DNA of 64,000 bases, from the NCBI RefSeq assembly GCF_000150955.2, contig NC_011681.1, positions 47,501 through 111,500 of the forward strand. The letters run 5' to 3'. Numbering within the stretch: the stretch's first letter is position 1; the number at the start of each line of letters is the position of its first letter. This document shows positions 1 to 21,966 of the stretch, in pieces. The notes under the pieces were generated by a model. It searched no databases, had not been told where the DNA came from, and saw only the letters and a program-made list of their open reading frames with translations. The stretch comes from Phaeodactylum tricornutum CCAP 1055/1 (lineage: Eukaryota > Bacillariophyta > Bacillariophyceae > Surirellales > Neidiaceae). A program made the position numbers and the translations under genes.

Positions 1-550
1 GGACCTATGCGTAGAATGCAATTTGGATCAATGAACTTATAAAACAATGAGTGGGTGATTACCTTCTACAAACTAGTCAATCTGTTGTTCAGTCCAGTGA
101 ACAATCCCACAAAATGCCATCGAATCTTTGATCTTCCACAGCTGCCATAATCTCAACAGGCAACCTTTCTTTCACATGTATATATACTTTCGGAACTATA
201 AGTTCCTAGCACGATACCTATGGTGAGTATAGGATCTTGTTCAATCCCACCATGTGGTTCGTGGTACCTCTTTTGTCCCCGCAATCGTATCTCCTATGTT
301 TCGATCGTATTTCACTGTACCCTTGGTCTTGTAAACTGACAAGTAAGGACTAAACACATGCGCCTCCGGAAACATAGCAATCGTACAAATGCACCCTTTA
401 TTGTGAGTCCACGTGGCCACGAAATAAGGCTGACAATATTTCTGTGCGCGCCTCCTTAACTCCATGTGCATAGTTTTGATTCACACTTGCGACATCCATG
501 TTATGCGAATCATGTCCATGAGACATGTCGCAAGGAGGCATACCGTAACA
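1..550 (-). repeat. 3' LTR of the first Copia element (partial)
   Basis: This stretch repeats 6969-7518 with the same spacing and no difference I could see. The outer 170 bases or so expected from the 721-bp partner lie left of the window. The repeat ends at 550 in CCGTAACA. Just inside it, on the element's own strand, is a purine-rich run (GATGGGGAG) ending at the LTR edge, as expected of a polypurine tract. Confidence 0.92.
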
Positions 551-3500
551 CTCCCCATCAGCCTGCTTGGTGGTCTTGAAAGTCTTCACCTCACAATTTG
601 ATGTATCACCTTGCCAGAACAAGAGTGGCTTAAGGACTGGCCATGCCTGTTGAAAACCCCAGTGCTTACTGAGCACATCTGCCACGTTTTCGGCTCCCAA
701 GATTTTCTGGAAATCAACAACTCCTGCTGCAATTGCCTCACGAACGCGATGATAAGACAATGCATTATGACGCTTGTTTATGGGCGACTGAGGTTCTGTT
801 GAGCTAGTAATCACTGACTGGTTGTCACCAAACAAGATTGTCTTTCCTGTCACTGGTACTCCAAGGTAACGGAGGGTAGTACGGATGTCCATGATTTGCT
901 CAACTGCAATCCGAGCTGCAACAAACTCAGACCCATAGGTGGCAGTCTCAACAGTAGCCTGACGCTTTGAGAACCATTCAAAGGGAGTCTTGTTGATAAG
1001 ATGGAGGACTCCTGTCACAGAACGACCTGTTACCATGTCGTGGTATAGGTTTGCATCAACGTAGCTTGTTAGAGTGACATGCTTTCCAAGTGCCGTTGGT
1101 GCATCATGAGGAAGAAGTTCTTTGACATCCCCGTATACAGAAGTTGCCCAGCTATGACGCTTGTCCGGTAGTTCTGAGTAGTCGGGCTCATCAGTACGAA
1201 CCCGAATAGCACCATTCTTCATCTTCTTGACGTAACCGTACATCCGCTTGAGTCGATCAAGATGTCCTTCACGGGGTGCCACTCGAAATCTTGACATACT
1301 CATAACAGCAGTGGCTATATCAAATCGACCTAGTGTGATGAGCCATTGCAAGCTCCCAATGAGTGACTGGTACTGCTTTATCCCGTCTTCACTGAGTTCC
1401 GATGTAGCATCTAGTTCCGGATGGTCTCCTTTCTCTAGTGGGGACACATACATCTTGGGCTGTTCACCATACATCCTCTCATACTGCTCCATCATACGTG
1501 CAATATATTTCTTTGGGTGGTATGAAAGAGTGCCGTCCTTGTCTCGCTCGAAAGTACATCCCAAGTGGTATTCAAGAGGACCAACACCTTTGAGCTTGTA
1601 CTTGTGTCGCTCCTTGAGTTGATCAATGATATCTCCAGGACTGTGAGCTGCAACGGCGATGTCGTCAACCCAGACCGCAATGTACTCGTATACTCTACCA
1701 TTGGCTCGTATCCAGACATCCGAGTCGGCCTTACTTGCTGTGAACCCAAGGTCCCGAAGGGTGTCCGCAAATCTCTCATGCCATCGGAGTCCACTGCTCC
1801 TGAGACCATACAGTGCCTTGTTGATAACAAGAATGTGTCCTTCTAGCTCAGCAAATTCCGGACCAGCTACAACAAAGACCTTTTCTTTGGTCTTGGCTTC
1901 CAGGTATGCATTCCCTATGTCTGCTCCCCATAGCTTTAGACTGTTGAGTTCAGCTAGGAATACAACAATACGCAAGCTTCGTAGCGAGACAACTCCAGAA
2001 TACACACTTTCAAGAGGTACAGGAGTAAGATGTCCGCCAGCTACCATCCTGGCCTTGTGCCTTCCATCGTGCTTGACATCATATACTGTATGGATTCGGA
2101 TCTTCTTGAACCCTTCTGGTGCATTCGACACATGTTTACCGTGTATAACAGCTTTACCTCTGTCAATGAAGGTGTTATACTCATGGAGCTGAGTCCTTTC
2201 AATGTTTTCAGCCTCCTGCCATTTGCTATTTCTATTCAACTTATCAATAGCTACCGCCTCCTTGTGGTCACGAGGGATCTGGTACCCAAACTTGAAGACA
2301 GGTGAATGCCTAGTAGAATGGAGTCGAGCTTGGTTAACTAGCCGTTGAAACTTCTTTTCCCTAGTTGCAAGCCGTTTAAACTGTTTCCATCCTGGAGTAT
2401 CTAGTAGACCTTGGCGTTTAGCATAGGCAGCACAAGTAACAGGATCGTCGGCCCGTATGACATCAAGGGGTTCATAGGTAGACTCCCCAGTTTCCCAGTT
2501 AACAAGAACGTTGTATTTAGAGCCTTTGTAATTCTCATCGTTCGTAGATAGGGGACCTTGGTGCGCGACGATGTCCTTAAAACGCCATTGTCGATCAGTA
2601 TCATGCAATTCTTTGTCTAGATCAGTTTCAAGTTTATCTAGAATTTCGTTGTAGGCAAGAATTTCATCATACTCGCCATCATTGATTTCGACTAAAAAAC
2701 GCACATCAGAGGGCTTGTCGGGATCTAAGATTTTCCTTGTGATACGTGCACGAAAACGCTCCCCATCATCCTGAGTATCGGTTAGGAACGTGCGTCCAAT
2801 AAGGTCGTCAGGGGTGAAACCGGGTAGATCCTTTAAGGCATAGGAATTTTTGTTTTCAGTTCTACGCGACTTGACAAAGTTGATAGGCTTAGAATTACTC
2901 TCCCCATCCTGTGGCGTAAGGCGTAGGTTGGTTTCTCCGGATTTCAAAGCGGAACGCACACTAGAGCGGTATAAGATCTTGTTGGTGTCGTCTGTGAGGA
3001 CTTTGTAAGTGAGAGCATCCCCAACAGATTCAGCAATGCCAACAAAGTGACCGCTCTTTTCGGTACCATCGGAAGGGAAAGATGGATCTTCGATACGGTA
3101 GTACACCGGTTCCCAAAAATGAAACTGGAGAAGTACGCTGATATCAGGGGTGCTACCAAGAAGAGTCTCGAGCGGTGTACGATCATGCAAAGATTCATGG
3201 GACAAATGGTTGAAGACATAGCAGATGTAGGCAATGCACAAGAGCCAAGTGGAATCAGGAGCACCGGTTTTGTTAAGAACGTTATTGGTATTAGCTTCAA
3301 TAGTAGCAATACGGCGTTCGGCAAAATTTTGATGTTGATGATGAGGTTCACTTTGCCATTGGTCAATGTTGTAGGCTCGTGTAATATCAGCAACCTTCTT
3401 ACTGATTTCGACTTGGGCTCGATCACTCAGAAGTTTATCCATAGCTCCACGATGGCGAATATTGTCTTCAAGGGCATTGACAAACTCCTTGTCTGTTTTC

Positions 3501-6109
3501 ATGGGATAAATATCGGTGACTAAGGAACGTCTCCCCACAAACAGTTGTGCAAACTTGGCTCCGTTGTCAACAGCAGGTGTGTCTGACCAGATAGTATCCG
3601 TTGCAACAGCCTCGTTGCGCCGATGCACATTTAGAGCCGGGAATCGCGATTTGAAGTGCTTTCGTAGCGGTGCATTGTAGACTTCGCGAGCGTACTGTGT
3701 CGTAGCCATGATGGTTTTTCGGACAGTGTCACCGGATACCCATCCCAAGCAGGGACGTAATGCTTCATAATCCCGTTCATTGCGTTTGACATTGTGCTTA
3801 CGACACTGGATAATGCAATCAATAGCGTCCTCGCGATCGAGATCGTAGTACGCTATATGGCGGTGGAGGTATTGGCCTGTGTTGTCAAATCGTGGTTCAA
3901 CATAGGCATTGCCCGGAAGATCTTGCATTGCATCGTACCAGTCGTTCACCATGTCAACTTCATTGTCTAGAATAGAAGGGTCCCAGTCAATATCGGAAGT
4001 CAACACAACATGCGGAAGAGATTCGAACTCGCTATCGGTAGGCTGCCGCATATCCATATACGGGAGGCCTTGTCGAACATGAAGAGGAATGATATAATCA
4101 TCCAAGGTAACAATCCGCTGTTGTCCTCCAACATTGCGAGACCGGTCTTCGACTGTGTTTCGGTAATGCTCAAGTTGGGCACTGGAGTGGATGGTCTTTC
4201 CCTTGCCAAGATAGGCGTATTGGTGCATAATCACAATGATAGGGCCTTTGTGAGACTCGACAAACCCAGCGGCAGTGACAATATCCAAATCTGACAGGGT
4301 ATGCTCGTTGATACCCGTTATACTAGCAGACCGTCCTGTCTTGTTCACAACTTTGACATCACAGCCAGCAAGTCCACCGTTGGCACCTCGATCGACTAGA
4401 GCAGCAGTCTTGTTCTCAACGGAATGACGAGAGACTTGATATTCCAGAACGTTGAGTTGAACAGACTGTTGTCGATTGTCCGATGACTGGGTACAATTGA
4501 TTGGTGTACGGCGGGATGCAGCAAGAACTTTTCGGATATCGCCATCTCCCATGTGACTCACACGGTCAGTCAAGTGTGCAAGGAGCTCCGTCGTTTGATC
4601 ACAGTCATGGAATGCTTCAGCTTGCTGGTTGTCTGGTTCGCTACGATTGAACTCGCCATTATCGTTCGATATCTTGGCGTGGGTATTCGCTTCCAACGCA
4701 CGTTGCGAGACATCGCCGGATCGAGTAGGGCCTTTGTCGGGTGCGGACAGGCCTTGGAGAATGGCTTTGGCATCATCTGAAAGCTGATTCCACATTTCGC
4801 GAGGGATATACGGACGCTCTCGATTGGTTGCCGGATCGCGATTACGGTGGCCAGATGGACTGACTTTGCGGTTGTGAGCATTGGCCTCATAGATCACTGC
4901 AGGAGAGAGATCAATATCATAGTCAATCCCATTGTCTTCGGTGAAGTCCGGTTGATCATACGAGAGGTCGGTCAGAAAGGCGCTACGCTTGCTCTTGACA
5001 CTACGAGAATTGGAAAGGTTGTTCCCTTTATCGTATAGAGAAGCAGATGCAAGCAATAGACTCAGGTAACCTTCGTAGTTGAGGGGAGTGCCTCCTTTAG
5101 CTAAGTCTAAAGTAGCGGTGATCTTGACCTGGCGGAGTTCAGGGATGTCGTGTACAGCGTTTTCAAGCATACTGAGGCAAAGCTGTTTAGGCAACTGCTC
5201 TGCCATAGGAACCATATCATTGTAGATGCGAAGATGGTTCTTCCAGTGAAGGATGAACCCTTCCGCCGTTCCTGTCCAGGATGTGCCATATTTTGCCGTA
5301 GTGAGGTAGGCCAAAGTGTTGGAGGACCCAATCTTGGCACTGGCAGACTCTGTGTAGTGCTTGACAACCTTACGGAAAACTTCTTGGGCATTGAAGTCAA
5401 AACTATGTTCGCGAACAAGGTTTTTCCCCATATCTGTCTGAAGTGTATGTTCCAAAGCAGAGTACACAAATTTCTTCTGTTCCTCAAAAAGAGACTTCTC
5501 TGAGGGGTCCGTCGGTGCATAGGATGGGTCAAGTACCTTTTCCACGTTATGGGATACCGCGGTGACCACGAAAGACCGGTAGAAATTGTCCCAGTATCGG
5601 TCATCCTTAAGGATAGGATAGTGGGTCTTGTCACGCTTGACTCCTCGCTTGAATTCGTCGACTGCCGATCGAGCTTTCGTGGACGTACTTAACTGGTTGT
5701 TCAGAGAAGGACTGATGGTGGCCGGAACATTAGAGACTTGTCCGAGTGCTGAGCGTCGATATAAAATGAAATCTCCACTAGTCAATGCAACAAGCTCCGA
5801 ATTTTCCAAAGGACTTCCCTTTTGCCGTTCAAGTGATGCCTGCCAACGCAGGAAATGACGAAGGATCTGTCGGTGCGCCATGAGCAATGGGGTCCACTGA
5901 GGGTCTTCATGGGTGTCAGGACTCGCTGAAGGCACATATCCAAGGGCATCTAGTTCGTTCTCAAAAATACTGAGGAGATCATCAACAGAATTATACCCTT
6001 GTTGTTCGAAACTAAGTCGGATTGGGTGCCCTTGAGGAAGTGAAAATACATTATCCAAAAAATGCGAGTAAGCAGCTCCGCTAGTCATTTGCCTGGTGGC
6101 CGGTACCAT
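398..6109 (-). CDS. Copia gag-pol polyprotein
   Basis: One long open frame of about 1,900 codons; the first in-frame ATG is at 6109. From 5' to 3' it shows a gag region (about 6100-4600), protease (about 4400), integrase (about 3850-2900), reverse transcriptase (about 2200-1400) and RNase H (about 1000-700). Reverse transcriptase is recognisable from YxDD-like WVDD and the GADIGNAYLEAK block. The frame ends inside the 3' LTR, so the last 50 or so codons are LTR-encoded. It looks whole. This is a transposable element gene, not a host gene. Confidence 0.92.
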   Translation of the reverse strand: MVPATRQMTSGAAYSHFLDNVFSLPQGHPIRLSFEQQGYNSVDDLLSIFENELDALGYVPSASPDTHEDPQWTPLLMAHRQILRHFLRWQASLERQKGSPLENSELVALTSGDFILYRRSALGQVSNVPATISPSLNNQLSTSTKARSAVDEFKRGVKRDKTHYPILKDDRYWDNFYRSFVVTAVSHNVEKVLDPSYAPTDPSEKSLFEEQKKFVYSALEHTLQTDMGKNLVREHSFDFNAQEVFRKVVKHYTESASAKIGSSNTLAYLTTAKYGTSWTGTAEGFILHWKNHLRIYNDMVPMAEQLPKQLCLSMLENAVHDIPELRQVKITATLDLAKGGTPLNYEGYLSLLLASASLYDKGNNLSNSRSVKSKRSAFLTDLSYDQPDFTEDNGIDYDIDLSPAVIYEANAHNRKVSPSGHRNRDPATNRERPYIPREMWNQLSDDAKAILQGLSAPDKGPTRSGDVSQRALEANTHAKISNDNGEFNRSEPDNQQAEAFHDCDQTTELLAHLTDRVSHMGDGDIRKVLAASRRTPINCTQSSDNRQQSVQLNVLEYQVSRHSVENKTAALVDRGANGGLAGCDVKVVNKTGRSASITGINEHTLSDLDIVTAAGFVESHKGPIIVIMHQYAYLGKGKTIHSSAQLEHYRNTVEDRSRNVGGQQRIVTLDDYIIPLHVRQGLPYMDMRQPTDSEFESLPHVVLTSDIDWDPSILDNEVDMVNDWYDAMQDLPGNAYVEPRFDNTGQYLHRHIAYYDLDREDAIDCIIQCRKHNVKRNERDYEALRPCLGWVSGDTVRKTIMATTQYAREVYNAPLRKHFKSRFPALNVHRRNEAVATDTIWSDTPAVDNGAKFAQLFVGRRSLVTDIYPMKTDKEFVNALEDNIRHRGAMDKLLSDRAQVEISKKVADITRAYNIDQWQSEPHHQHQNFAERRIATIEANTNNVLNKTGAPDSTWLLCIAYICYVFNHLSHESLHDRTPLETLLGSTPDISVLLQFHFWEPVYYRIEDPSFPSDGTEKSGHFVGIAESVGDALTYKVLTDDTNKILYRSSVRSALKSGETNLRLTPQDGESNSKPINFVKSRRTENKNSYALKDLPGFTPDDLIGRTFLTDTQDDGERFRARITRKILDPDKPSDVRFLVEINDGEYDEILAYNEILDKLETDLDKELHDTDRQWRFKDIVAHQGPLSTNDENYKGSKYNVLVNWETGESTYEPLDVIRADDPVTCAAYAKRQGLLDTPGWKQFKRLATREKKFQRLVNQARLHSTRHSPVFKFGYQIPRDHKEAVAIDKLNRNSKWQEAENIERTQLHEYNTFIDRGKAVIHGKHVSNAPEGFKKIRIHTVYDVKHDGRHKARMVAGGHLTPVPLESVYSGVVSLRSLRIVVFLAELNSLKLWGADIGNAYLEAKTKEKVFVVAGPEFAELEGHILVINKALYGLRSSGLRWHERFADTLRDLGFTASKADSDVWIRANGRVYEYIAVWVDDIAVAAHSPGDIIDQLKERHKYKLKGVGPLEYHLGCTFERDKDGTLSYHPKKYIARMMEQYERMYGEQPKMYVSPLEKGDHPELDATSELSEDGIKQYQSLIGSLQWLITLGRFDIATAVMSMSRFRVAPREGHLDRLKRMYGYVKKMKNGAIRVRTDEPDYSELPDKRHSWATSVYGDVKELLPHDAPTALGKHVTLTSYVDANLYHDMVTGRSVTGVLHLINKTPFEWFSKRQATVETATYGSEFVAARIAVEQIMDIRTTLRYLGVPVTGKTILFGDNQSVITSSTEPQSPINKRHNALSYHRVREAIAAGVVDFQKILGAENVADVLSKHWGFQQAWPVLKPLLFWQGDTSNCEVKTFKTTKQADGECYGMPPCDMSHGHDSHNMDVASVNQNYAHGVKEARTEILSALFRGHVDSQ

Positions 6110-6797
6110 GGTGGGCTGGATAGCCAAATCAATAAAAGGTTTCTTGGGGTTCTCAAAAGAAAATATCTAATTATGGGTTCGGGTCCTTCGCTGTTTTGTT
6201 ATAGCGGACTTCGTTAAATGACCCTACACCAGTGAACGAAGCTAGCACTGGTACACTCACTTCTACCTCCGTAGGCAGTGTCCTCGGGGACTGACGAGGG
6301 TTTGATTAGCCCCCCCGTACTACTTTACGCCGGGTAGTAAGTCCGTCCCAACCGGAATCAGGGTTCAAGTCCTTGAGCCTTTTGGTATTTCTACCTCACT
6401 CAACCAGAGTAACCCGTAGTCACGAAACAACTTGTCGACGAACCCTGAAGACTCCAAGGGGTTCTCGACACCAGTGATTCCGAGGAAGTAGGGAGGCCAC
6501 GAAAACTTATTGACAAACCCTGAAGCAGTACTAGTGGGTTCTCAATACCAGTTACCGTGAGGAAGTAGGGTAGCAGCTTCCAACCAATGCGTTACACAAG
6601 CCGATAAATACCCCACTTAAGGTGGCACCTCTGATACTTGATGTAACAAACAAAAGATGTCGGCAGTTAGTGACCAAACAATGTACGCCGAGTACGAAGT
6701 TCGGAAACCGTCTTGAGCGAAGACCTCAAGATGTGTTTACCACAAACAACTGTGCAATGGGCAGCAGTGGTTTGACGTGCTGTCAAGACTGTTAATC
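6110..6797 (-). other. Copia leader with internal direct repeats
   Basis: This is the untranslated leader between the 5' LTR and the gag-pol start. It holds two imperfect copies of a module of about 75 bases, at about 6430-6505 and 6506-6580, each carrying ACCCTGAAG, GGGTTCTC and GAGGAAGTAGGG. The second Copia element has the same two modules at about 22200-22340, so the leader arrangement predates the separation of the two elements. No usual initiator-methionine tRNA primer site was evident beside the LTR. Confidence 0.6.
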
Positions 6798-7518
6798 TGT
6801 TACGGAGTACTACCAAAGCACAACCGTAGGACAGATCGCTGTTAGGACAGTGAGTGGTAAACGAAGGTGGGCGTTGAGACGAACGACCTGCGATACACCT
6901 AAGAGACTTAGGGACTGTAAAACTCAACTCGTTGACGACGCTCCCCACGGGTTAGACAGCGGATACGAGGACCTATGCGTAGAATGCAATTTGGATCAAT
7001 GAACTTATAAAACAATGAGTGGGTGATTACCTTCTACAAACTAGTCAATCTGTTGTTCAGTCCAGTGAACAATCCCACAAAATGCCATCGAATCTTTGAT
7101 CTTCCACAGCTGCCATAATCTCAACAGGCAACCTTTCTTTCACATGTATATATACTTTCGGAACTATAAGTTCCTAGCACGATACCTATGGTGAGTATAG
7201 GATCTTGTTCAATCCCACCATGTGGTTCGTGGTACCTCTTTTGTCCCCGCAATCGTATCTCCTATGTTTCGATCGTATTTCACTGTACCCTTGGTCTTGT
7301 AAACTGACAAGTAAGGACTAAACACATGCGCCTCCGGAAACATAGCAATCGTACAAATGCACCCTTTATTGTGAGTCCACGTGGCCACGAAATAAGGCTG
7401 ACAATATTTCTGTGCGCGCCTCCTTAACTCCATGTGCATAGTTTTGATTCACACTTGCGACATCCATGTTATGCGAATCATGTCCATGAGACATGTCGCA
7501 AGGAGGCATACCGTAACA
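6798..7518 (-). repeat. 5' LTR of the first Copia element
   Basis: A 721-base LTR with perfect short inverted ends, TGTTACGG at 6798 and CCGTAACA at 7511-7518. The right part repeats 1-550. Related but longer or shorter LTRs occur at 18477, 19256, 22564, 26713 and, inverted, at 7841. Confidence 0.92.
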
Positions 7519-7840
7519 GTCACGACTCAAGGCATGCGCGCAATTTTGCAATGCGGTACTCAAAACCAACTTTCCAGTTGACACAATGATGTGATTATCT
7601 GTGGAGAGTAGTACTGATTCTACTGAGACTCCTAAGGGAGCTCCATGGGATTTGTTTGCACTCAAAAAGATTACATCCATATTTGTCTCTACTCACAATT
7701 CTAAATTTAGTCAAGTTCAAACCAATTGAGTTGCAGATTAATTACAATACAATTGGGGTCTTACAAGGCTTTCCCCTTTATTCATCTTACTCTCTCTTTG
7801 TATCAACAATACATTGCATGAGTATAGAAGAATTTGTTAC
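7519..7840 (-). repeat. Remnant of a second Copia-type element (LTR plus start of gag)
   Basis: Read on the minus strand, this starts with a TGTAACA-type terminus near 7840, followed by an AATAAA-bearing LTR stretch and the beginning of a short coding frame (MDVIFLSANKS). It is the reverse complement of the remnant at 25296-25620, with many scattered differences. It is cut on its inner side by the first Copia element, which therefore inserted later. Old and broken. Confidence 0.65.
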
Positions 7841-8510
7841 ACATGTCTTGTGGAAATTATTCACTAAACACGGATGTTGCAAGTGTGAATCAAAATTATG
7901 CACATGGAGTTAAGGAGGTATGCACAGAAATGTTGTCAGCCTTATTTTTTGGCCATGTGGCCTCACAGTAAAGGGAGCATTTGTACAATTGCTATGTTTC
8001 TGGAGGCGCATGTGTTTAGTCCTTACTTGTCAGTTTACAAGACCAAAGTACAGTGGACTACAATTGGAACAAAAGGAGTACCACAAACCACATGGTGGGG
8101 TTGAACAAGATCCTTTACTCACCATAGGTATTGTGCAAGGAACTTATAGTTCCGAAAGTATATTTACATGTGAAAGAAAGGTTGCCTATTGAGATTATGG
8201 CAGCTGCGGAAGATTGAAGATTTGATGGTATTTTGTGGGATTGTTCACTGAAATGAACAACAGATTGACTAGTTTGTAGAATGTCATCACCCACTCATTG
8301 TTTTAGAAATTCTTTGATCCAAATTGCATTTTACGCATAGGTCCTCATATCTGCTGTCTAACCGGTGGGGAGCATTGTCAACAAGTTGAGTTTTACAGTC
8401 CCTAAGTCTCTTAGCTGTACTGCAGGTTGTTTGTCTCAACACCCACCTTTGTTTACCACTCACTGTCCTAACAGCAATCTGTCCTATGGTTGTGCTTTGG
8501 TAGTACTCCA
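7841..8510 (+). repeat. Inverted Copia LTR remnant
   Basis: Diverged copy of the 6798-7518 or 19256-20133 type LTR in the opposite orientation. It can be followed from the CATGTCTTGTGG block near 7843 to the TAGTACTCC block ending near 8510. Terminal bases have been lost at both ends and there is no visible target duplication. It is clearly older than the neighbouring element. Confidence 0.75.
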
Positions 8511-8818
8511 CAAAAAAAAGCATCCACAATTGGTACACAAGAGCAAAAGACAATGCGCAATTCAGGTAAAAGTCATAAGGTAGGAAGCAATATCATACAA
8601 CATATACTGTTCTATTAACGGAATAATGCATTATTATTGAGATGTGGTCCTGTGTACTATGGATTGTTGGTTTACATCCAATATGCTAGCAGTAAGAATT
8701 TACATCGAAATTATCAAGGCACAAATTTTCTTGTAACAGGAAAAAGGCACGGTCCAGTAATGAGCCTCTTGGGTTTCAAAATCACGTCGAAATATGTACC
8801 GGTTCTAAGTCTTACGCC
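8511..8818. other. Gene-free AT-rich spacer
   Basis: It lies between the LTR remnant and the left end of the DNA transposon. It starts with an A-rich run. I see no gene, repeat copy or RNA gene in it. Confidence 0.6.
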
Positions 8819-8834
8819 CTAGTGTCTATTCTAC
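8819..8834 (+). repeat. Left terminal inverted repeat of the DNA transposon
   Basis: CTAGTGTCTATTCTAC, preceded by GCC. It pairs perfectly with 11478-11493. A perfect hairpin (CACCTGAGGAC, 2-base loop, GTCCTCAGGTG) follows about ten bases inside. Confidence 0.85.
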
Positions 8835-9145
8835 TTCTGTGCTCACCTGAGGACTGGTCCTCAGGTGAGGTCACTTTTCAGACCTATGGTAATAAACAAA
8901 GAAATCATTATGAAAGAAAGTTACCGCTACCGTTGTCTTCAGCATGCTCTAAAACGTCTTGGGGTAAAGTAGGAAGCTTTAATATCAAAAAGTGACAGAG
9001 AAATGACCGTCAACGGAAAGTTCATCGTTTTTTTTTCAAAATTTTTTGGCGGGTAAAATGGCTTGTCTGGACGTCAATGAAATGGCCATTACATCCCCAA
9101 TACTTGGTTTGAGTCATATAAGTTAGGCTTGGTGCATTGTCAGAC

Positions 9146-9817
9146 ATGCCAGTGAGGGATCCTAGGCTTGAAATTGGAGGGAAGGTGACGGCAAAGGCTT
9201 GTCATGTTGTGCATCTGAGCGAGTGCGCACGGAGATATGGCGCCAACAAACACACCAAGCGACTTGTTGGAACGGTTGTAGACGTCATGACCACCCCTGT
9301 ATCCCTTTCAACCGGGCGTACCTCTACTTTGATAACAGCAGTTTATGATTTTGGAGAGGATTTGTTCAAGGAAAACACACTGAACATTCGGAGTGTAAAG
9401 GCATTTGTACTGCCAGAAATGTCCTTAATTGAGGAAGTAGCAGCAGAGGCTTTGCGGGCAGCAGAAGCAGACTTTGACGCCGGAAACTTGATGGAAGAAA
9501 TGGTTGAAGCCCCAGTAGCCAAAATGGTTGAAACCCTGGCTGACATAGAGCCCGATACCTTGGTCGACACAGAGCCCAATACCCCGGTTGACACAGAACC
9601 TGATAGCCCGGTGGCCAAAATTGTCGAAACCCCGGTTTACACAGAGTCCGAAAACCCAATAGCCACAGTGCACCAAACAGAGTGGTATGTGAATAAAAGA
9701 AAAACCCGGCTGGATGTGAACGGCCATGTCTATATTAGGCACTTCCATATCCGTACTTCAGTTGGTGACCTTATTGGTCAAGACTCTGACAATTATCCAT
9801 CGCTTCGTTTTGGGTAG
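9146..9817 (+). CDS. N-terminal arm of a piggyBac-like transposase-type protein, truncated
   Basis: Open frame of 223 codons; the frame opens at 9137 on TTG and the first ATG is 9146. Residues 1-95 or so form a compact domain (SECARRYGANKHTKRLVGTV, STGRTST, LNIRSVKAF) that I associate with N-terminal regions of piggyBac-like proteins in diatoms; this is from memory and tentative. Residues about 120-170 are imperfect repeats around DTEPDTPV and VAKMVETP. The end reads WYVNKRKTRL...YIRHFHIR, where a DDE transposase domain would be expected to begin. The frame stops just where the antisense HSP110 segment starts, so the protein lacks a catalytic domain. Confidence 0.55.
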   Translation: MPVRDPRLEIGGKVTAKACHVVHLSECARRYGANKHTKRLVGTVVDVMTTPVSLSTGRTSTLITAVYDFGEDLFKENTLNIRSVKAFVLPEMSLIEEVAAEALRAAEADFDAGNLMEEMVEAPVAKMVETLADIEPDTLVDTEPNTPVDTEPDSPVAKIVETPVYTESENPIATVHQTEWYVNKRKTRLDVNGHVYIRHFHIRTSVGDLIGQDSDNYPSLRFG

Positions 9818-9819
9818 TA

Positions 9820-10775
9820 AAGGCGGCCTTTTCCGCGTCGGTACCGAACAATCCCAGAGCCGAATCCAAACCAACCTTGTCCTGCATACCGTAAATATAG
9901 GCCTTGAGTTTGTTACATTTGTCGGACGGTTCTTGCACAAGTTTGTCCTTGAGCACCATGGCCAGTTCAACCTGGTACGCCTTTTGAATTTTGCCATCGG
10001 TCCACTCCAACGAACGCGTCGTGGTAAAGACCAAATTGGTCTTTTTCACCTTCTTCTTGTTCTCCGGAGCGGCATCTTCCTCGCCATCCTTAAGGGGAGA
10101 AGGATCCGACATCTCGGATTCCTCCTTGTTGGCAATCTCTTCCATCATTTGTGCCAAACTCAGTTGGATGATACCGTGAATATCCTCTTTGACGTTGACG
10201 CAATTTTTTTTGGCTTCCTCGGATATGGGCGCCTGCACGGAAAAGGTCGCAATTGCGTTTCCAAAAGCCGGCAAGCCGTATTTGAGGGCCTTTTTATTGT
10301 ATTCCGCCAGCACGGCGAAGGTTCCCTGGTTCTGTTTAACGTCATCCGACGCACAATGGTAAAGGACAAACTGCGGTCAAACATGACAACGGCATTGGTT
10401 GGCTGGGCACCCGTGGTGGCATCCACTTCCATGCCTTGCGCCTCGTCGTTGGCGTCCTCGTCCCATCACAGTTGAAAGGGCCAGGCTTGGAATTTGTGAA
10501 TGTTGTAGGGAAGGACCTTGAACCGGGGTGACAGGATAGCGGATTGCAGGGCCGCGCCACGGGCGACGGCTTTGTTGGCGTTGATTGTCATGGAGAGTAC
10601 TTCCGTAGCTGCCGCGCCGGCTCCACTGTTGGTGAGGAATCCCGTGAGGGCCTATTTGACGGAACCGATGCGGGTCGAGCCACCCATAATTTCGACCGAG
10701 TGCAAATTGGCCGCCGTGAGTTTGCCTTTGGCCAAGGCCTGGACTAAGGGATCGAGTTGGACAAGGACAGCCCAA
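9820..10775 (-). pseudogene. HSP110/HSP70-superfamily chaperone fragment, captured and antisense
   Basis: On the minus strand this reads as the middle of an HSP110 (HSPA4-type) chaperone. First comes the end of the nucleotide-binding domain (LVQALAKGKLTAANLHSVEIMGG, ARGAALQSAILSPRFKVLP). Then comes the beta substrate-binding domain (VVMFDRSLSFTIVRR, YGLPAFGNAIATFSVQAPI), an acidic and lysine-rich linker (EDAAPENKKKVKKTN), and part of the alpha-helical domain (NKLKAYIYGMQDKV, FGTDAEKAAF). It begins mid-gene and ends mid-gene. In-frame stops (for example after GSVK and after PFQL) and at least one frameshift near 10320 separate the pieces, so it cannot make a chaperone. Both ends abut transposon coding arms. 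Confidence 0.85.
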
Positions 10776-10794
10776 CAATCTCAAGAACTGGAGA

Positions 10795-11036
10795 GCCGCA
10801 ATGTGGTCTCTATGCACATCTTACCCCCACCAAAAAAAGAAAGAAAGAACAAAGATGGTACTATTAAAAACCAAAGACAGCAGGGAAGGTGTTTGGTGTG
10901 TTCCAAGAAGACCACATATGTTTGCTCTGTATCCAAAGATGTTGCGACAATTGAAAGCAAAGAACAATGGATTTGCTACACAACAGGAGGGCAGCTATGC
11001 TTTGCCCAACACCTGACTACCTTGCATGGTAGTTAA
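10795..11036 (+). pseudogene. Cysteine-rich C-terminal arm of a piggyBac-like protein
   Basis: The plus-strand frame gives a lysine-rich stretch, then RCLVCSKKTTYVC, WICYTTGG and LCFAQHLTTLH before a stop at 11036. The spacing C-x2-C...C...C...C-x3-H resembles the cysteine-rich zinc-binding tail of piggyBac transposases. The same frame continues upstream through antisense HSP110 sequence to about 10518 with no ATG near its start. Part of this region is repeated at about 11196-11404. Confidence 0.5.
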
Positions 11037-11404
11037 AGACTTTATAGTACTAATTGGATACAAGTAACTCCTAGTATTTATGGTAAAAGTGTGTTTCTTA
11101 ACCATCATAGCTAAATCCCTATTATCTGTATAGTTTTGTACCGTGTCTACAGGATTGTCTACAGGATTTTGCCCATTTACTTATTTTTTTTGTGTCAATT
11201 GAAGGCAAAGAATCATAGATTTGCTACTTAACGGGAGGGCAGCCATGCTTTGCCCAACACCTGACTACTTTGCATGGTAGTTAAAGACTTTATAATACTA
11301 ATTGGATACAAGTAACTCCTAGTATTTATGGTAAAAATGTGTTTCTTAACCATCATAGCAAAATCCCTTTTACCTGTATAGTTTTGTACCGTGTCTACAG
11401 GATT
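10948..11404 (+). repeat. Tandem duplication inside the DNA transposon (about 248-base spacing)
   Basis: Bases 10948-11157 and 11196-11404 match closely, starting at CAATTGAA-A/G-GCAAAGAA and ending at GTCTACAGGATT. The unit covers the end of the cysteine-rich frame and its 3' flank. The copies differ by scattered substitutions, so the duplication is not new. Confidence 0.85.
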
Positions 11405-11477
11405 TGGCCCATTTGTTTCTCTATTTTTGCGTCCTCAGCTGAGGACAAATGCTTGCCTCAGCTGAGGACAAGGGCCG

Positions 11478-11493
11478 GTAGAATAGACACTAG
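11478..11493 (-). repeat. Right terminal inverted repeat of the DNA transposon
   Basis: GTAGAATAGACACTAG, the exact reverse complement of 8819-8834. It lies 237 bases upstream of the next gene's start codon, inside what should be that gene's promoter region. Confidence 0.85.
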
Positions 11494-11730
11494 ATCGCAA
11501 CTAACTGTAAACTGGTACGTCATATCTATTTTTACTGTTAGTCGCTCACAGTCAATCAGCAGCGAAGTCAGACAACCTCCGGGATGAACTTCAAATACTA
11601 ACTGTAACAAGGGATACTCCACTGCCTTTTTGCGAAACGAAGACATACCATGCAACCATGAACCACTAGAAAGCCAGCCTCTTGTGAACTCTGATAGTCA
11701 AAGTCATTGAAAATAGCGCAAGGGCGTAAT

Positions 11731-13134
11731 ATGGGCGAGCTTGTGGCTCGGCCCCCCATTCATACGGCGTCGTATGATCGCCTGCAGCCAGACCGTCTAT
11801 CCACAATTCTGCTTTTCCACGAAGACGATCCCGTCAACTATCGCTATAAAGTTGTAGTCGTGGACCGAATGCTGCTTCCCTCCACCCCCCTTCAATACGG
11901 GACTGCCGCATTTCTCATTCCAGCTGGACGGGAAGCTGAATACATCTTTGCTTCGGAGATTGGATTAAAATCAATAGCGGAATCTGCCAGCACGGCCCGA
12001 CTGATCGCAATCAGTTTTGGAAGACATCATAGGTTCGGCTCGCAGATAATCGTTCAGGAAGAACTGTCGTTCGTCGTACAGGTTCTCTCTCGCCAAGGCA
12101 CCTTTCTACCGAAACCACACCAGGAGCTGCTTGCCGAGGTTGAAATCCCATTCATGGCTGTAGATGGGATTGGAAATCGCCATATTGTTGCAGAAGGAGA
12201 GAGTCAAATTTCAGGCAAGTATCTTGTTGAGCAAGTCGATGTTGATGGAATGCAGGTCCGTCGACTATATTTTGCGAACAATCCTTTTGTAATTCAGTCA
12301 GAAGCTGTGCTGCGCGATCAGGGTCGGGTTGATAAGAGCTGTTCTGCGTTTGACTATCACAAAACTATGGCTGCCGGTATTCTGGCACTGGTTGATTCGG
12401 ATGTTTTGACGCACGGTCTTCTGGTTGGTCTGGGGGGTGGTTGTTTCGTCAACTTGATTGGGCATCTCCTGAATGATCTTGAATTGTCGGTAGTCGAACT
12501 TGACCCTGCTATACTGAAAATTGCCGAAGAGCACTTTGATCTAGATCTGGAGAGCAACCGCTTGGACATCCGGGTGGGCGACGGCCTAGAGATCATGCCA
12601 CTTACCCATGACGCCGTTTCGGGTTGTCCGACAACCTTCGCAAAAGAAAGTATGGCATTTGTTGCCATTGATGTTGATTCGAAGGACCAATCAGCTGGTA
12701 TGTCATGTCCGCCAGAATCTTTCGTAGAAATTGAGTATTTGTCGAGGTTGGCTGAGCTTATCCACCCACATGGAGTTCTAGTCATGAATATATCTGCTCG
12801 AGATCCTGAAAAGCTAGATCATGTTTGTCGAAGAGTGCAACAAGTTTTTCGAAACGTTGCGCTGGCAGCACCTCACGACGGAGAGGGCAATGGGAAAAAG
12901 AAAGATATAAATATGGTTCTATTTGGGAAGCACGCCGTCATGGAAGTGTCAACATCAAAGCTTTGTCCACTGGTGGAACCTCATACTACCTATGAATCAG
13001 GGCCTGACCTAAAGAGGGCATTGGCAAATCTTGTTGCATGGAACGAAACAAAATCAATTGACACTGGTTCATCAAACAAGATTGGGCGAACCAAGACCAC
13101 TCGACAGAAGAAAAAGCGTGGAAAGAGAAAATAA
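11731..13134 (+). CDS. METTL13-like class I methyltransferase (C-terminal half only)
   Basis: 467 residues from the ATG at 11731; the frame opens upstream at a TTG. Residues about 55-120 match the middle region of METTL13 (FLIPAGREAEYIF, a block of arginine/histidine and E-L-S motifs). The rest matches its second methyltransferase domain: RRLYFANNPFVIQSEA, DKSCSAFDYHKTM, the SAM-binding GLLVGLGGGCF, the acidic VVELDPAIL and VGDGLEIM. Human METTL13 methylates eEF1A at its N-terminus with this domain and at Lys55 with a separate N-terminal domain, which is absent here. The tail is lysine/arginine-rich (KTTRQKKKRGKRK), possibly for RNA or nucleolar contact. Substrate is inferred, not shown. Confidence 0.8.
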   Translation: MGELVARPPIHTASYDRLQPDRLSTILLFHEDDPVNYRYKVVVVDRMLLPSTPLQYGTAAFLIPAGREAEYIFASEIGLKSIAESASTARLIAISFGRHHRFGSQIIVQEELSFVVQVLSRQGTFLPKPHQELLAEVEIPFMAVDGIGNRHIVAEGESQISGKYLVEQVDVDGMQVRRLYFANNPFVIQSEAVLRDQGRVDKSCSAFDYHKTMAAGILALVDSDVLTHGLLVGLGGGCFVNLIGHLLNDLELSVVELDPAILKIAEEHFDLDLESNRLDIRVGDGLEIMPLTHDAVSGCPTTFAKESMAFVAIDVDSKDQSAGMSCPPESFVEIEYLSRLAELIHPHGVLVMNISARDPEKLDHVCRRVQQVFRNVALAAPHDGEGNGKKKDINMVLFGKHAVMEVSTSKLCPLVEPHTTYESGPDLKRALANLVAWNETKSIDTGSSNKIGRTKTTRQKKKRGKRK

Positions 13135-14085: not shown

Positions 14086-14989
14086 AATTGGAGGTCAAAA
14101 CCAACTCTGGCTATTTATTGATGAGGAAGAATTCTAAGAGTTGTGATATCCATTATTAGCAGTATCTACAAAACAATGTTGAACAATTCCCGAAACAATG
14201 TTGAACAACTCTGTCTGAAGCAGACTCATTGATGCATCAATGCTATCCTATCTATGTAACAATGGAAGAAAGAGAATGGTATAATTTTTATGGATGGAGA
14301 GAATAAATGGCAAGAGAAAAAAGGTATGTGGACAGAAAGAGACAATTTCTCTTGTGGAAAGAGAACCCACACGACACATCACCTGACCAGTCAAATGAGA
14401 GAGGTTCTATCATCTTGCTTTTTGTATGGGAGTATCCAAAATGTATATCCAAAGCATTTCACTAGTACCCAGTATCATCAGAGCCATTTCCAAGTCCTCA
14501 CGCATATAGCAGCATAAACTCTTTTGATAGCGTTACTGTGAAGTGATATTCATTAACATATTTTTGGAGCTGTGTACTTTCTTTTGCTTTCAATGTTCTT
14601 TGTTATCTATCTTATATCCATATTTCCTAAGGAAACTAAACTCTCTCTTTTGACATACAGATGATGAATACTAGGGATGCCCACTTGTGTGTGATTGATG
14701 CAGTTCATCATACTCACTCACCACAGTCAAAACCAATTTTTACATAACAAGGGGAAAACAAAAGAATATTGCGCAACACACAATATTTTGCATTTGACAA
14801 CATTCATATTCTCTCTCCGACAAAAGTAAAGGGGAATACAAAAATAATGGAACGCCAGGCCAAGCTTCACGGCCGTCGGTTCGGAAATACGCTTCCTAAA
14901 TTTCAGAGTTCTTGCTACACATTTCGATCAAACATTTTGAACATCATGAGGGACAGACAGATGCAACCTTGCTGTAAGATTCGAAGCAC

Positions 14990-15545
14990 TATGGACAGTT
15001 TCGACAGATAAAGTGATTGATATATTCGTAATACTGGGACAGTTTCGACAGATACAGTGATGATATTCGGGATACAACAGATAAAGTGATGATGTATTTG
15101 TGATAATGGACAGTTTCGACAGATATAGTGATGATATTTTCGGGATAAATTTGACAAGCACGTTCGATCGTCTGATCTACCAAACAAATCTATCATCAAA
15201 ATACACGGATGTAAAATGGAAAAGCATGGCTGAAATAATGGAGAGAAGATGACCTAACGGAACGGTATTAACATGCCGCCGAAACGTCAGTCTGAATTAA
15301 GATTCGAAGCACTATAGACAGTTTCGACAGATAAAGTGATGATGTATTCGTCGTGATAATGGACAGTTTCGAGAGATATAGTAATGATATATTCGGGATA
15401 AATCTGACAAGCACATTCGTTCGCCTGAGCTAATCTATCATCAAAACAAACGGATGTAAAATGGACAAGCATGGCTGAAATAATGGAAATAAGATGACCT
15501 AACAGTATGGTAAAAGATGCCGAAATGTCAGTATCAATTTGGATA
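14990..15545 (+). repeat. Cluster of GACAGTTTCGACAGATA repeats
   Basis: The motif GACAGTTTCGACAGATA followed by GTGATGATATTCG-like sequence occurs about five times, near 14994, 15038, 15110, 15318 and 15362. On a larger scale about 180 bases from 15111 are repeated from 15361 (shared GACAAGCAC, CATCAAAA, GGATGTAAAATGGA, CATGGCTGAAATAATGGA, AAGATGACCTAAC). Degenerate fragments of the larger unit (GGATGTAAAA...ATGGCTGAAATGTC) continue to about 15720. Confidence 0.75.
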
Positions 15546-17436
15546 TCGTGACAAATTTGAAAAACACGTTCGCCTGGGGATGTAAAATTTGTTTTAAAAA
15601 ATGGAAAAACATGGCTGAAATGTCTATATAATGTCTATTTTTTCGTGACAAACAAACACGTTCACGACTGGGGTTGTAAAAGTTTGTTTGTAAAATGGAA
15701 AATATGGCTGAAATGTCTAATTTTCGAATATCAGTAATTACAGATGCAATGATGCAATTTAAGCAATAGTCGTTGAAGGAAAGTCAATAGATATTTTCGG
15801 ATATCAGTAGATGCAATGATGCAATTAAAGCACTACATTGGGGGAAGCTCGATAGATGATAATTGAAAGCTGCAGGATCACGGTAGGCTTCTTGGAGAGC
15901 ACTTTCTGGCTATCTGAATGATACCAAAAATCTCCGAAATACTGCGTAGAATGAATGCTTGTGAAAAATTGACAAATATAGATAGTTTCTGTCGACGCTA
16001 GTTTCCAATACAATATGATGGCAAGAAAGATGATAAAAACTAGTAAACGAAACATTCGTTAGTAGGATAGAAAATACTTTTTAGATAGGACAAATAAAAT
16101 TTGACATCATTCGTTTATTTGGGATGTTAAAAAGTTTTTCTTCGAATGCAGAAGACCAAAGAAGGAACGTGAGCAGCTGATTGATTGATAAGGAGATAAG
16201 AATGCTAACAAGCCCAGAAAAAACGCACTAATAGACAATTTCAAATAAGACGTCCGTCAAAAGTTCTAACTTATGTTGCAACGCGCAATTTAAAAGGTAA
16301 AAACGGTGAAATCAAGGGCAAACATTCTTTTTTTCGAGAAGAATTCTGTTGTGCTTGGATACTCCAATCATTGATCTGACCTCTCCTCTCAAATGATTGC
16401 GGTCATAAAGGCTTTTTAGTGGAAGACATAGCCAATGTGCACATGGCTAAAGAGGATGTACAACAATTGCTTCTCAGATGAATTTGATGATGTAACAAAA
16501 TCAGGATTTTCACTTTGGACGAGAATAATCTTCTACCGGATGTAAACTGTCTCGATACGACCCATCCTGATATAATAATTCACTGTCAATTTGTCATTGG
16601 TCCTCGCTGGTACCTTTGCTCTGGACTCAGATGTGATCTGGCTGGAAATGCATCATAATTTCTTCAAAAAAAGTGGAAAGAGAGACCCGTACACCACCTA
16701 AAAAATTGATGCAACTGGGACATACAAAACAAAGAAACGTTGCCTTTTCACATCGTTTAATGAATACACTAATTTTTACAGAAACTGGTAAAGGTTTAGT
16801 GTATTCGACAGTAATCTAGGAAGCCTAACAAAAGTATAAAAATCTATTTCCAAACATACGATTGCAGCGTTCGAAGAGACTCAATAAAAATTTCACAAGG
16901 ATGCATGCAGATAATTTACAAATAGAAGGAGCTGGATATTCCTTTCCGTTTCATTTTAAATTCATTTACATTATGGACTGTGAGCAACGAGTTTTTTGAA
17001 ATTGGAGCAAAATGATAGAAAGAAAAACGTGGTTGTGAAGCAATAAGCGAGTTCAAGGTCCAAAGAAGTAAATGAAGAAGCGTTGTCAACTGAGCGAAAG
17101 AAAATGATTGTTTTGTTGTCAATTTCGGTTGCCACGTTAGTTTTCGTTGCCGCTACTGATTCTGCAAAAAATGGGTCTATTGCTTAATTCAGCTCTAGCT
17201 CACACATTTCTGACTTCATTTCTTTTTATAATTGTTAAGCAACATAGATTTCGAGTTCTTCTCGAGCTGGTGTGAATCTATCGCTTTCTATTTTCACCCT
17301 TTTTGCCCTGGCCAACCGTTGTGACTGCCATTAAGCACAACCACTTGCTATCTATTTCTATTTTACTGGATGTACCAAAAAGGTGGTGATTTTGTCTCAT
17401 CTCATCGAAATTGCACCTTTCGCCAAAGTATTTTCG

Positions 17437-18260: not shown

Positions 18261-18476
18261 CCTAGAAATATTTGTTCCATTCATGTTGTTGTTACAAGCA
18301 ATGGTACATTACCACTTCACCTGTTTTCAACCACACTTTGCTGCTGGTTACTTATCATGATGGTAGCAATCAGCCAGATTTACTGGCCTATGCTGTGTGA
18401 CATTGAGAATGAGGCAAACTGGACATGGTTTTGAGAACAGATGCCTAGAAATATTTGTTCCATTCATGTTGTTGTT

Positions 18477-19157
18477 TGTTACGCGGTATACACCAGTGTG
18501 CACCATTCGGACAGAAGCGCTGTTAGGGACAGAGCTTGGTAAACAGAGAGGGCGTTATGACGAACAACCGGCAATACACCTAAGAGGCTTAGGGACTGTA
18601 AAACTCTACTCGTTGGCGACGCTCCCCTCGGGTTAGGCAGCGGATACGAGGACCTGTGCGTAAACTAGCAGTACGGATCAAAGAACTTATAAAACAATGA
18701 TTGAAGAATTAGTGCTATAAACTAGTTCTCGTTGCTTCTCTGATTTGCCAACAAAACAATAAAACTGAGAAACAAACTCAACCGTACACAAATATCTTTC
18801 TTCGGTCATAGTATTCCTATACCATGACCCGCGCTCACATATACTTATAGTGACACCGAGAATACCTTTCATAACATGCATGCCGTGGAAAATGGAGCGC
18901 ATCCATTTACATCCGTTAGGCAGGCAATAAGTATTGTCTGTCCCACTCCGTTGCAACCGTCAGAACACGACACGTTCCGTTGCGTTCTCTCCAACGCTTG
19001 ATACATCATTGTATCTAGGGACTCCATACAATAAGACCGAACTAACTCCCATACGACTCACTTCATTCTCAGGAACACTCCAACTGCCATTCACCGTGTT
19101 GACATCCAACTGACGGACATCATTAGAAGACATGTTGCATGGTACTATACCGTGATA
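18477..19157 (-). repeat. Solo Copia LTR with 5-bp target duplication
   Basis: It starts TGTTACGCGG and ends near ACCGTGATA, 681 bases, diverged from the other LTRs. It is flanked by TTGTT at 18472-18476 and 19158-19162. Removing it restores CATGTTG-TTGTT-ACAAGC, which is seen intact in the unit copy at about 18286-18300, so the insertion site is directly confirmed. No internal element sequence remains, as expected after LTR-LTR recombination. Confidence 0.85.
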
Positions 19158-19255
19158 TTGTTACAAGCAATGGTACATTACCACTTCACCTGTTTTCAAC
19201 CACACTTTGCTGCTGGCTTGTTGTTACTTACTTATCATGATGGTAGCAATCAGCC

Positions 19256-20133
19256 TGTTACGGAGTACTACCAAAGCACAACCGAGGACGGATCGCTGTT
19301 ATGACAGTGTGTGGTAAACAAAGGTGGGCGTTATGACAAACGACCTGCGATACACCTAAGCAAGCTTAGGGACTGTAAAACTCACTTGCTGACGACGCTC
19401 CCCACGGGTTAGACAGCGGATGCGAGGACCTATGCTATAATAAAATATTTGGATCAAAGAATTTCTAAAACAATGAGTGGAAAATTACATGCTACAAACT
19501 AGTCAATCTGTTGTTCAGTCCAGTGAACAATCCCACAAAGTGCCAGCGCATCATTGATCTTCCACAACTTCCATAATCTCAATAGACAATCTTTCTCCCA
19601 CATGTATATATACCTCCAGAACTATGAGTCCCATGCACAACACCTATGGTGAGTAGCTGTTCTTCTTCAGTCCCACCATGTGTCTTGTGATAGCCCCTTT
19701 ATTGCTTCAATCGTATTTTCGATGTTCCAATTATATCCCAGTCCATTTTGGTCGTGTAAACCGACAAGTGGAGACTAAGCACATGCGGCTCCGGAAACAT
19801 AGCAATTGTACAAACGCTTCGATTATTGTGAGTCCACGTGGCCACGGAACAAGGCTTTGGTATCATTTCTGTGCGTGCCTCCTTAACTCCATGTGCATAG
19901 TTTTGATTCACACTTGCGACATCCGTGTTTAGTGAATAATTTCCACAAGACATGTCGCAAGGAGGTAAACCACAACAGGGTAACTCAAATACGGTATATT
20001 TGCGCAATAAGGCCGACACAAACTCCATATGGGACACGTAACCGCTGCGTCCATCGGATTGGCTCACACTTAGACTTTCCTTACCAAGTGGAAACTGTCC
20101 GAGGGACATGCCGCAAGGTAGTGTACCGTAACA
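19256..20133 (-). repeat. 3' LTR of the second Copia element
   Basis: 878 bases, TGTTACGG to CCGTAACA. It is longer than the LTR of the first element, the extra length lying in the part that encodes the end of the polyprotein frame. A purine-rich tract (GATGGGGAG on the element strand) abuts its inner edge. Confidence 0.93.
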
Positions 20134-21966
20134 CTCCCCATCGGCCTGTCTTGATGCTATAGATGTCCTTGCCTCACAATTTGATTTGTCCCCCTTCCCA
20201 AACAGGAGAAGGTTGACAAGTGGCCACATTTGTAGAAAATTCCAAAACTTGCTGAGCACATCATCTTTGTTCTCACCACTAAGGATCTCACCACTTAGGA
20301 TCTTCAGAGCATAGGTAACATCATCTGGGATTGCCTTGCAAACTTGCGGGTAGGACAATGAGTTATGCCGTATGTTGATGAGACAAAGAACTCCTGTCAC
20401 GGAATGCACTGTTATCATGTCGTGAGAAATGTGCCTTCCGTCATGCTTGACATTGTAGACCATATGGATGAGGATATTCTTGTACTCTTCCGGTGCGTTT
20501 GAGACTTGGTTGCTGTGCACCAGATCCTCCTGTTTCGCAATAAAAATGTTATGCTCACAAAGCTTGCCCCTTTCAAAGCTCTTATCATCCTGCCAGTTGC
20601 TATTTCCATTTGACTTGTCAATAGCTACAGCTTTGTTAGGGTCATGAGGGAGTTGGCACTCAGATTTGAAGACAGGGGAATGTTTAAAGCACCTCAGACA
20701 ATCTTGGTCAAGAAGTCCTTGAAACTCTTCAACTCTAGTTGCAAACCAGTCGGAATGATTCCCTCCCAATGTGTCTAGTAGATCTTGGTGTTTAGCATAG
20801 GTAGCACATATTTCAAGGTTGTTGACCTGTATGGCATCTAGCAATCCGTAGCTAGGTCCCCAATCAAACACATGGTATCTAGAACTTTCGTAGATTTCTG
20901 ACATGTGTGAAGAGGGGAAAGGTCCTTTGCATGCGACAATGCCCTCAATACACCACGGTCCGTCTGTGTCTTGCAACTTTTCATCTAGATTGGTTTCGTG
21001 ATTGTCTAGAACTTCGTTGCAAACTAGAGTTTCATCATACTTGTCATCACTGATTACAAGTCCCTCCGAAATTTTTTCATCAGATGGTTTATCACATTCC
21101 AGAAATTTTCCTGTATTGCATTCACACAGTTGCTCCCCATCATCCTGAGTATCAGTTGGGAAAGTTTGCCGTTCACGAAATAGCTCCCCATCATCCTGAC
21201 TGTCGGTTAGAAAAGTTTTTCCAATGAGGTTGTCAGGAGTGAAACCAGGTAAACCCTTAAAGGCACAGGAATTGTTGGTTTCAGTTCCAAGGGGCTTGAC
21301 AAAGCTGATGGGTTTAGGAATACTCTCCCCATCCTGTGGCATAAGGTCAAGGTTGGTTGCTCCGGATCTCAATGCAGAATGTACACTCGAACAGTACGTG
21401 ATTGCATTGGTGTTGTTGACAGACAGGGTAGTTGCATCTTCTTTACAATAAACAGGTTTCTTCTGTCCGTTCAAAACCGACCAAGGTTTGTTAGGTATGC
21501 CCGGGGCGCTCGAAGAAGATGTTGTAGTGGTCAATACGCTTGAAACTTGGCCAAGTGCCGACCGTTTATAGAAGGCAAAGTCACTACTGGTCAACTCAAC
21601 GAGCTCAGAATCGTCTAAAGAACTTCCCTTTTTCCGTTCAAGTGAGGCCTGCCAACGTAGAAAATGGCGAAGGATCTGTCGGTGTGCCATGAGCAATGGG
21701 GTCCACTGGGGGTTGTCATTGGTGTCCAAGCTTGTTGGAGGAACATACCCAAAGGTACCAAGTTCATTCTCACAAATACCGAGAAGGTCTTCCACGGTAT
21801 CATACCCTTGCTGAGCAAAGCTAAGCCGAATCGGATGCCCTTGGGGAATTGAGAAAACTTTATCCAAAAGATGCGAGAAGACTGTGCTGCTGGTCATTTG
21901 TCCAGTGCTTGCTAACATGATGGGTTGGGTAGCCAAACCAATAAGAAAGGTTCTTGCGGTTCTCAA
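19699..21966 (-). pseudogene. Broken gag-pol of the second Copia element
   Basis: A frame of about 755 codons starts with a gag N-terminus clearly related to that of the first element (SIPQGHPIRLSFAQQGYDTVEDLL). It continues through short diverged pol-derived pieces and ends inside the 3' LTR. Protease, integrase and reverse transcriptase domains are not present as such. Treated as a fossil with several large losses. Confidence 0.85.

Follow-up and report, generated by a model that had tools for sequence, protein, structure and literature searches.

A stretch at 8819–11493 of the Phaeodactylum tricornutum DNA analysed here (64,000 nucleotides of contig NC_011681.1, hereafter the 64-kb window) is probably a non-autonomous, piggyBac-like cut-and-paste transposon in which ~0.95 kb from an HSP110-type host gene, lying in reverse, has taken the place of the segment for the catalytic core. 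This reading draws on the inverted ends and the palindromes next to them, on two open coding arms, the right one with a piggyBac-type cysteine/histidine pattern, and on the truncated chaperone fragment between the arms.

Inverted ends and subterminal palindromes

The repeats that delimit the element are as follows.

8819–8834, plus strand: left terminal inverted repeat, CTAGTGTCTATTCTAC, 16 bp and perfect, made up of the 12-bp TGTCTATTCTAC and an outer CTAG
11478–11493, minus strand: right terminal inverted repeat, the exact reverse complement of the left CTAGTGTCTATTCTAC
8842–8869, no strand assigned: left subterminal palindrome with 13-nt arms at 8842–8854 and 8857–8869 (CTCACCTGAGGAC and GTCCTCAGGTGAG), a candidate transposase binding site
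11431–11469, no strand assigned: right subterminal palindromes, with arms at 11431–11444 and 11456–11469

A preceding sequence-only reading had described perfect 16-base inverted ends with palindromes beside them, and both were found at these positions. In 300 dinucleotide shuffles of 8400–11900, the longest separated perfect inverted repeat measured 14 bp (four shuffles) and none attained 16 bp, while the real window holds one longer inverted pair, of 45 bp, within LTR-like repeats (7601–7645/25492–25536). The 12-bp core TGTCTATTCTAC and its complement have one site each in the 64 kb with up to one mismatch and five each at two mismatches, their own site counted. The exact 16-bp end also occurred once in each of seven viral-contig stretches, which we read as chance by judgement and not from a computed expectation. 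Because CTAG is its own reverse complement, four of the 16 end bases are uninformative as to inverted symmetry. The outer CTAG may be a target duplication and the true ends the 12-bp repeats, in which case the element may comprise 2,667 bp (8823–11489), flanked by CGCC-CTAG on the left and CTAG-ATCG on the right. Outward of the ends, an imperfect match goes on for 20 of 23 bases, so that the true tip is not fixed by a single copy.

Measured from the 12-bp tip, the left palindrome occupies bp 20–47 and the right arms lie at bp 21–34 and 46–59, the latter containing two CCTCAGCTGAGG sites at 11433–11444 and 11456–11467 (bp 23–34 and 46–57). With up to one mismatch, CCTCAGSTGAGG was found at three places in the window, all three within the element, and with two mismatches at six, four within it and two outside. 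The palindromic repeat to which the cysteine-rich domain attaches in Trichoplusia ni (T. ni) piggyBac lies at bp 17–33 (PMC7351741). Palindromic repeats close to the tips are thus shared with piggyBac in layout, the one aspect compared, and by analogy the left palindrome is a candidate binding site for the transposase.

A reversed HSP110 gene fragment

Within the ends, the following features were mapped.

9146–9817, plus strand: left coding arm, with 223 codons counted from the first ATG in a frame that is open as of 9122
9825–10753, minus strand: HSP110/Sse1-type pseudogene fragment, with junctions estimated at ~9815–9825 and 10753–10800
10652–10654, minus strand: in-frame stop in the HSP110 fragment
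10466–10468, minus strand: second in-frame stop in the fragment
10800–11036, plus strand: right coding arm, with the piggyBac-type pattern followed by a stop at 11036; the start is approximate
10942–11427, plus strand: imperfect tandem duplication comprising the right-arm end and its 3′ flank, spaced by 248 and then 236 bases

The earlier claim of about 955 bases of HSP110 coding sequence in reverse, mid-gene at both sides, was corroborated by two matches to yeast SSE1: minus strand 10753–10355 aligned with residues 318–440 (E 4.8e-13) and 10148–9825 with residues 490–598 (E 8.7e-7), and both ends of an HSP110-type gene are absent. For the first part, SSE1 outscored the best HSP70-type chain (E 6.2e-7), HSP110 thus being the better fit, and Pfam HSP70 matched here as well (7.8e-12); for the second, all three matched chains were SSE1. 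The fragment thus spans the last portion of the nucleotide-binding domain and a large share of the substrate-binding part. Its reading frames had the best host-like codon scores of the six frames (0.305 and 0.249), on a score that was trained on ten open frames and whose control gene belonged to that training set. A plus-strand open frame at 9720–10475 (251 codons) was not adopted as a new gene, since the opposite HSP110 frame scores better (0.305 against 0.019 over 9825–10335).

The fragment had been said to lack introns, and by eye no intron-like interruption is present in it; what went unreported is its broken state, with the two in-frame stops and a frameshift between 10355 and 10148 (near 10340 by eye). 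The fragment is therefore a pseudogene, and a functional chaperone piece was rejected: two stops and a frameshift leave it unable to encode its part of the chaperone, with antisense RNA still possible. With a transition bias of 2 assumed, the two stops within 957 bases translate into ~5.9% substitutions per site (95% Poisson range 0.7–21%); between the internal tandem copies, 16 of the 215 bases aligned are different (7.4%, or ~93% identical). Both values fit an old, decaying copy, and the duplication may predate the capture.

A retroposed HSP110 copy was not preferred, given that both sides are mid-gene, that no poly(A)-type tract could be seen by eye at the 3′ side of the fragment and that 9790–9840 and 10740–10800 share no 6-mer in direct or inverted orientation. 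The absence of such a tract and of a shared 6-mer likewise speaks against a target-duplicating nested insertion. Within the 64 kb, the fragment had no other match below E 0.06 and no further copy with HSP110 cargo was found. A tblastn search of the viral collection (viral_contigs) for relatives of the second HSP110 part confirmed none of 24 pattern-matched stretches.

Two coding arms

The sequence-only reading had further described two transposon-like coding arms. This stands for the right arm, by its cysteine/histidine pattern; the left one is open and coding-like, with no family match to make it transposon-like. The left frame runs for 231 codons without a stop (9122–9817), compared with at most 185 codons stop-to-stop in 300 single-base shuffles, and its own frame had the best codon score of the six (0.10). 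Searches with the left arm gave no Pfam match (whole frame at E ≤1, two pieces at E ≤10), no match among solved structures and no tblastn relatives, with none of two pattern-matched stretches confirmed in the viral collection and none of 45 in the prokaryotic collection (genome_contigs). Being viral and prokaryotic, these collections tell little about the element's relatives. By its position only, the left arm is probably the N-terminal portion of a transposase. No case for selection on this arm can be made, since at 5% divergence 0.9 stops are expected and zero stops has a probability of 0.41.

In the right arm, the pattern CxxC-x7-CxxS-x13-C-x7-CxxxH at 10890–11012 reads CLVC-x7-CSVS-x13-C-x7-CFAQH. 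The piggyBac cysteine-rich domain has the form CxxC-CxxC-CxxH-CxxC in T. ni, with a variant CxxC-CxxC-CH-CxxxH, and in PiggyMac the intervals between the seven ligands Cys712 to His749 run 2-7-2-10-7-3 (PMC8086355). The right arm reads CxxC-CxxS-CY-CxxxH with ligand spacing 2-7-2-13-7-3, and so keeps six of these seven ligands, with Ser in place of the fourth Cys; the His ahead of the first Cys is 24 residues off as against 10. This pattern, which was written after inspection of the right arm and permits Ser, matched once in the six frames of the window and not at all in 300 residue shuffles. The best codon score of the arm was slightly negative (−0.025). Pfam gave no transposase or zinc-ribbon match (whole frame at E ≤1, two pieces at E ≤10), comparison with solved structures nothing convincing (the best, at E 0.46, being an unrelated lectin), and tblastn against the viral collection no confirmed relative among 59 pattern-matched stretches. 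Structure models of the two arms were unusable (pLDDT 48.8 and 36.9).

Superfamily assignment

The element resembles the piggyBac superfamily in its short inverted ends, its palindromic subterminal repeats and, less clearly, its C-terminal cysteine-rich pattern; it differs in having no TTAA, no catalytic core and an HSP110 cargo. piggyBac ends are inverted repeats of 12–19 bp with a CC[C/T]T tip (PMC2872659). The ends here, whether 12 or 16 bp, fall within that range, and such a tip occurs on the left only (CCCT, 8817–8820), the right one being ATCT. At the element ends CTAG stands where a piggyBac target duplication would have TTAA. The catalytic DDD core (Pfam DDE_Tnp_1_7) was found neither in five element stretches at E ≤1 nor in six pieces at E ≤10, a limit to be read with the HMMER filters in mind, which discard most matches above 0.1. 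Pfam matches to a herpesvirus UL92 family and to an adenovirus protease were under their cut-offs and taken as chance. The piggyBac-like label given earlier thus holds for the right-arm pattern and the layout of the ends and goes no further, with no TTAA at the ends and neither a core nor a Pfam transposase match found. We describe the element, from its sequence, as a DNA transposon with piggyBac-like anatomy, and claim no formal membership in piggyBac.

The same data could be accommodated if the element belonged to a different superfamily of inverted-repeat transposons, perhaps with CTAG as a 4-bp target; any piggyBac likeness would then be superficial, and the capture would still stand. CTAG on both tips and the lack of TTAA and of Pfam support would suit such an assignment; we consider it unlikely in view of the right-arm cysteine/histidine pattern, single in the window and absent from the shuffles, and of palindromes close to the place of the piggyBac binding site. 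As in Pack-TYPE elements, and irrespective of superfamily, inverted ends here enclose a host-type coding sequence.

Origin of the chimeric element

That a DNA transposon had captured HSP110 sequence, as first proposed, agrees with the inverted ends and with a reversed fragment truncated at both sides; the proposal has to be amended for a fragment that is broken. With no recognisable catalytic core, the element could have moved only with a transposase from another copy. The core was probably replaced during faulty gap repair, in a Pack-TYPE-like capture for which the repair mechanism itself is inferred. A full element would have been excised and repair of the gap would have begun by copying from a sister copy; copying would then have broken off, switched to the HSP110 gene and returned, leaving a core-less element with filler DNA whose HSP110 fragment later decayed. 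Comparable products are known from P and Ac/Ds, internally deleted transposons with filler DNA in which the core was lost through interrupted gap repair with the ends intact. The element resembles these deleted forms in its lost core and intact ends, and differs from them in that its filler consists of an extended stretch, in reverse, of a single recognisable gene.

The fragment might instead have entered a dead, immobile transposon copy by break repair or rearrangement, as a local scar and not as mobile cargo. Only one copy is known, it sits beside a nest of LTR-like repeats over about 1–27 kb, and both the fragment and the tandem duplication show decay, all of which such an origin would explain. 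It accounts less readily for a recognisable core missing where the fragment sits and for ends still perfect over 16 bp, and we give it a minor though appreciable chance; that the left frame is open says little against it, as a lack of stops at 5% divergence has a probability of 0.41. Faulty gap repair, our preferred route, has a further competitor in a second path to the same kind of element, tandem insertion followed by re-mobilisation, which has been put forward for Pack-CACTA (PMC8903248); here, partial elements on either side of an HSP110 gene portion would have been joined into a single unit. The left and right arms could derive from two elements in one orientation; no inner pair of inverted ends was found between them, however, and with up to one mismatch the 12-bp end occurs at the two outer places only, which makes this path distinctly improbable. 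Finally, repeat-rich surroundings and a single record might raise the suspicion that the junctions are an artefact of assembly or cloning, which is hardly credible for a fragment that carries its own stops and frameshift like a resident pseudogene, unlike an intact gene piece.

Comparison with known systems

Gene captures in plants have been reported for MULE, CACTA, hAT, PIF and Mariner elements (PMC8903248), and the main text of that article mentions piggyBac 0 times. The Pack-TYPE elements (Pack-MULE, Pack-CACTA, Pack-hAT, Pack-PIF and Pack-Mariner) likewise have inverted ends, an internal host coding piece and no complete transposase; what sets the present element apart is that open arms flank the piece, that the ends are piggyBac-like and that a plant is probably not the host. 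Elements with a weak relationship to piggyBac occur in P. tricornutum (PMC2806351), and the Phatr3 annotation includes 65 PiggyBac copies covering 79,036 bp and places 302 repeats in a class of putative host genes (PMC5859163).

Teratorn of teleost fish is also a piggyBac-like element with foreign genes between its ends, differing in its size of 41–182 kb, its fusion with a herpesvirus and its active transposase (PMC6431247). The giant DNA transposons of the brown alga Ectocarpus, another stramenopile, carry accessory genes unrelated to transposases and were compared to Pack-MULEs by their authors; they form giant families with mostly unknown genes, and the one named, Sola1-1_Ec32, is not piggyBac (PMC12477816). 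Coral CMITEs are piggyBac-related and non-autonomous, and a host origin by capture has been suggested for the region inside them, although they are only ~100 bp long, have no recognised donor and show TTAA duplications (PMC2872659). That suggestion is the nearest earlier case among the open-access matches listed. Capture of a named host gene by a piggyBac-type element was found in none of the matches listed from the open-access literature, and this agrees with the earlier statement that no piggyBac-like gene capture was known in diatoms. The capture is thus ordinary in kind and new, as far as the open-access matches listed go, for the piggyBac-like superfamily. Should it be confirmed, a piggyBac-like element, probably algal, would join the plant superfamilies of cut-and-paste elements for which capture of gene fragments has been reported.

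Antisense potential

A transcript running along the transposon strand could contain antisense HSP110 sequence. In P. tricornutum, transposon regions covered by small RNAs are mostly Copia-like or PiggyBac-like, although LTR retrotransposons account for 98% of the repeat-aligned reads; silencing with methylation has also been linked to antisense constructs (PMC4247016). It is conceivable, if very unlikely, that a mobile diatom piggyBac-like family has spread the reversed HSP110 piece and that its transcripts feed a small-RNA/methylation pathway, transposon silencing thereby tuning a stress chaperone. If true, transposon control and the heat-shock response would be connected through a captured gene piece. 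A reversed chaperone piece within such an element offers a concrete, checkable case of possible cross-talk; the element itself is one decayed copy and probably an inert relic.

Genomic surroundings

The window is eukaryotic in its protein content, encoding a reverse transcriptase of Copia type (RVT_2, 3.7e-28) along with a PUF protein of NOP9 type (2e-50). The former belongs to a Copia-type retrotransposon with a minus-strand ORF of 1,903 codons (398–6109), whose flanking copies at 1–553 and 6969–7521 are 99.8% identical over 553 bp, suggesting that it inserted recently; the left copy starts with the first base and may extend beyond the window. A nest of related repeats in both orientations (6292–8509, 18346–24405 and 26617–27279; ~81–99% identical for the longer matches) appears to be LTR-like, and an inverted copy ends ~310 bp to the left of the transposon. 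Adjoining LTR-like sequence, 23442–24405 forms a tandem array of ~198-bp units that are 92–97% alike.

At 19699–21918 (minus strand), a 739-codon open frame lies in DNA related to the Copia element, with 67% identity between 20430–21396 and 2056–2971 and 78% between 21542–21974 and 5733–6163. It had no Pfam match at E ≤0.001, and is perhaps a rearranged Copia derivative that has kept a long open frame. Diverged direct repeats, 75–88% alike, are clustered at 14975–15719.
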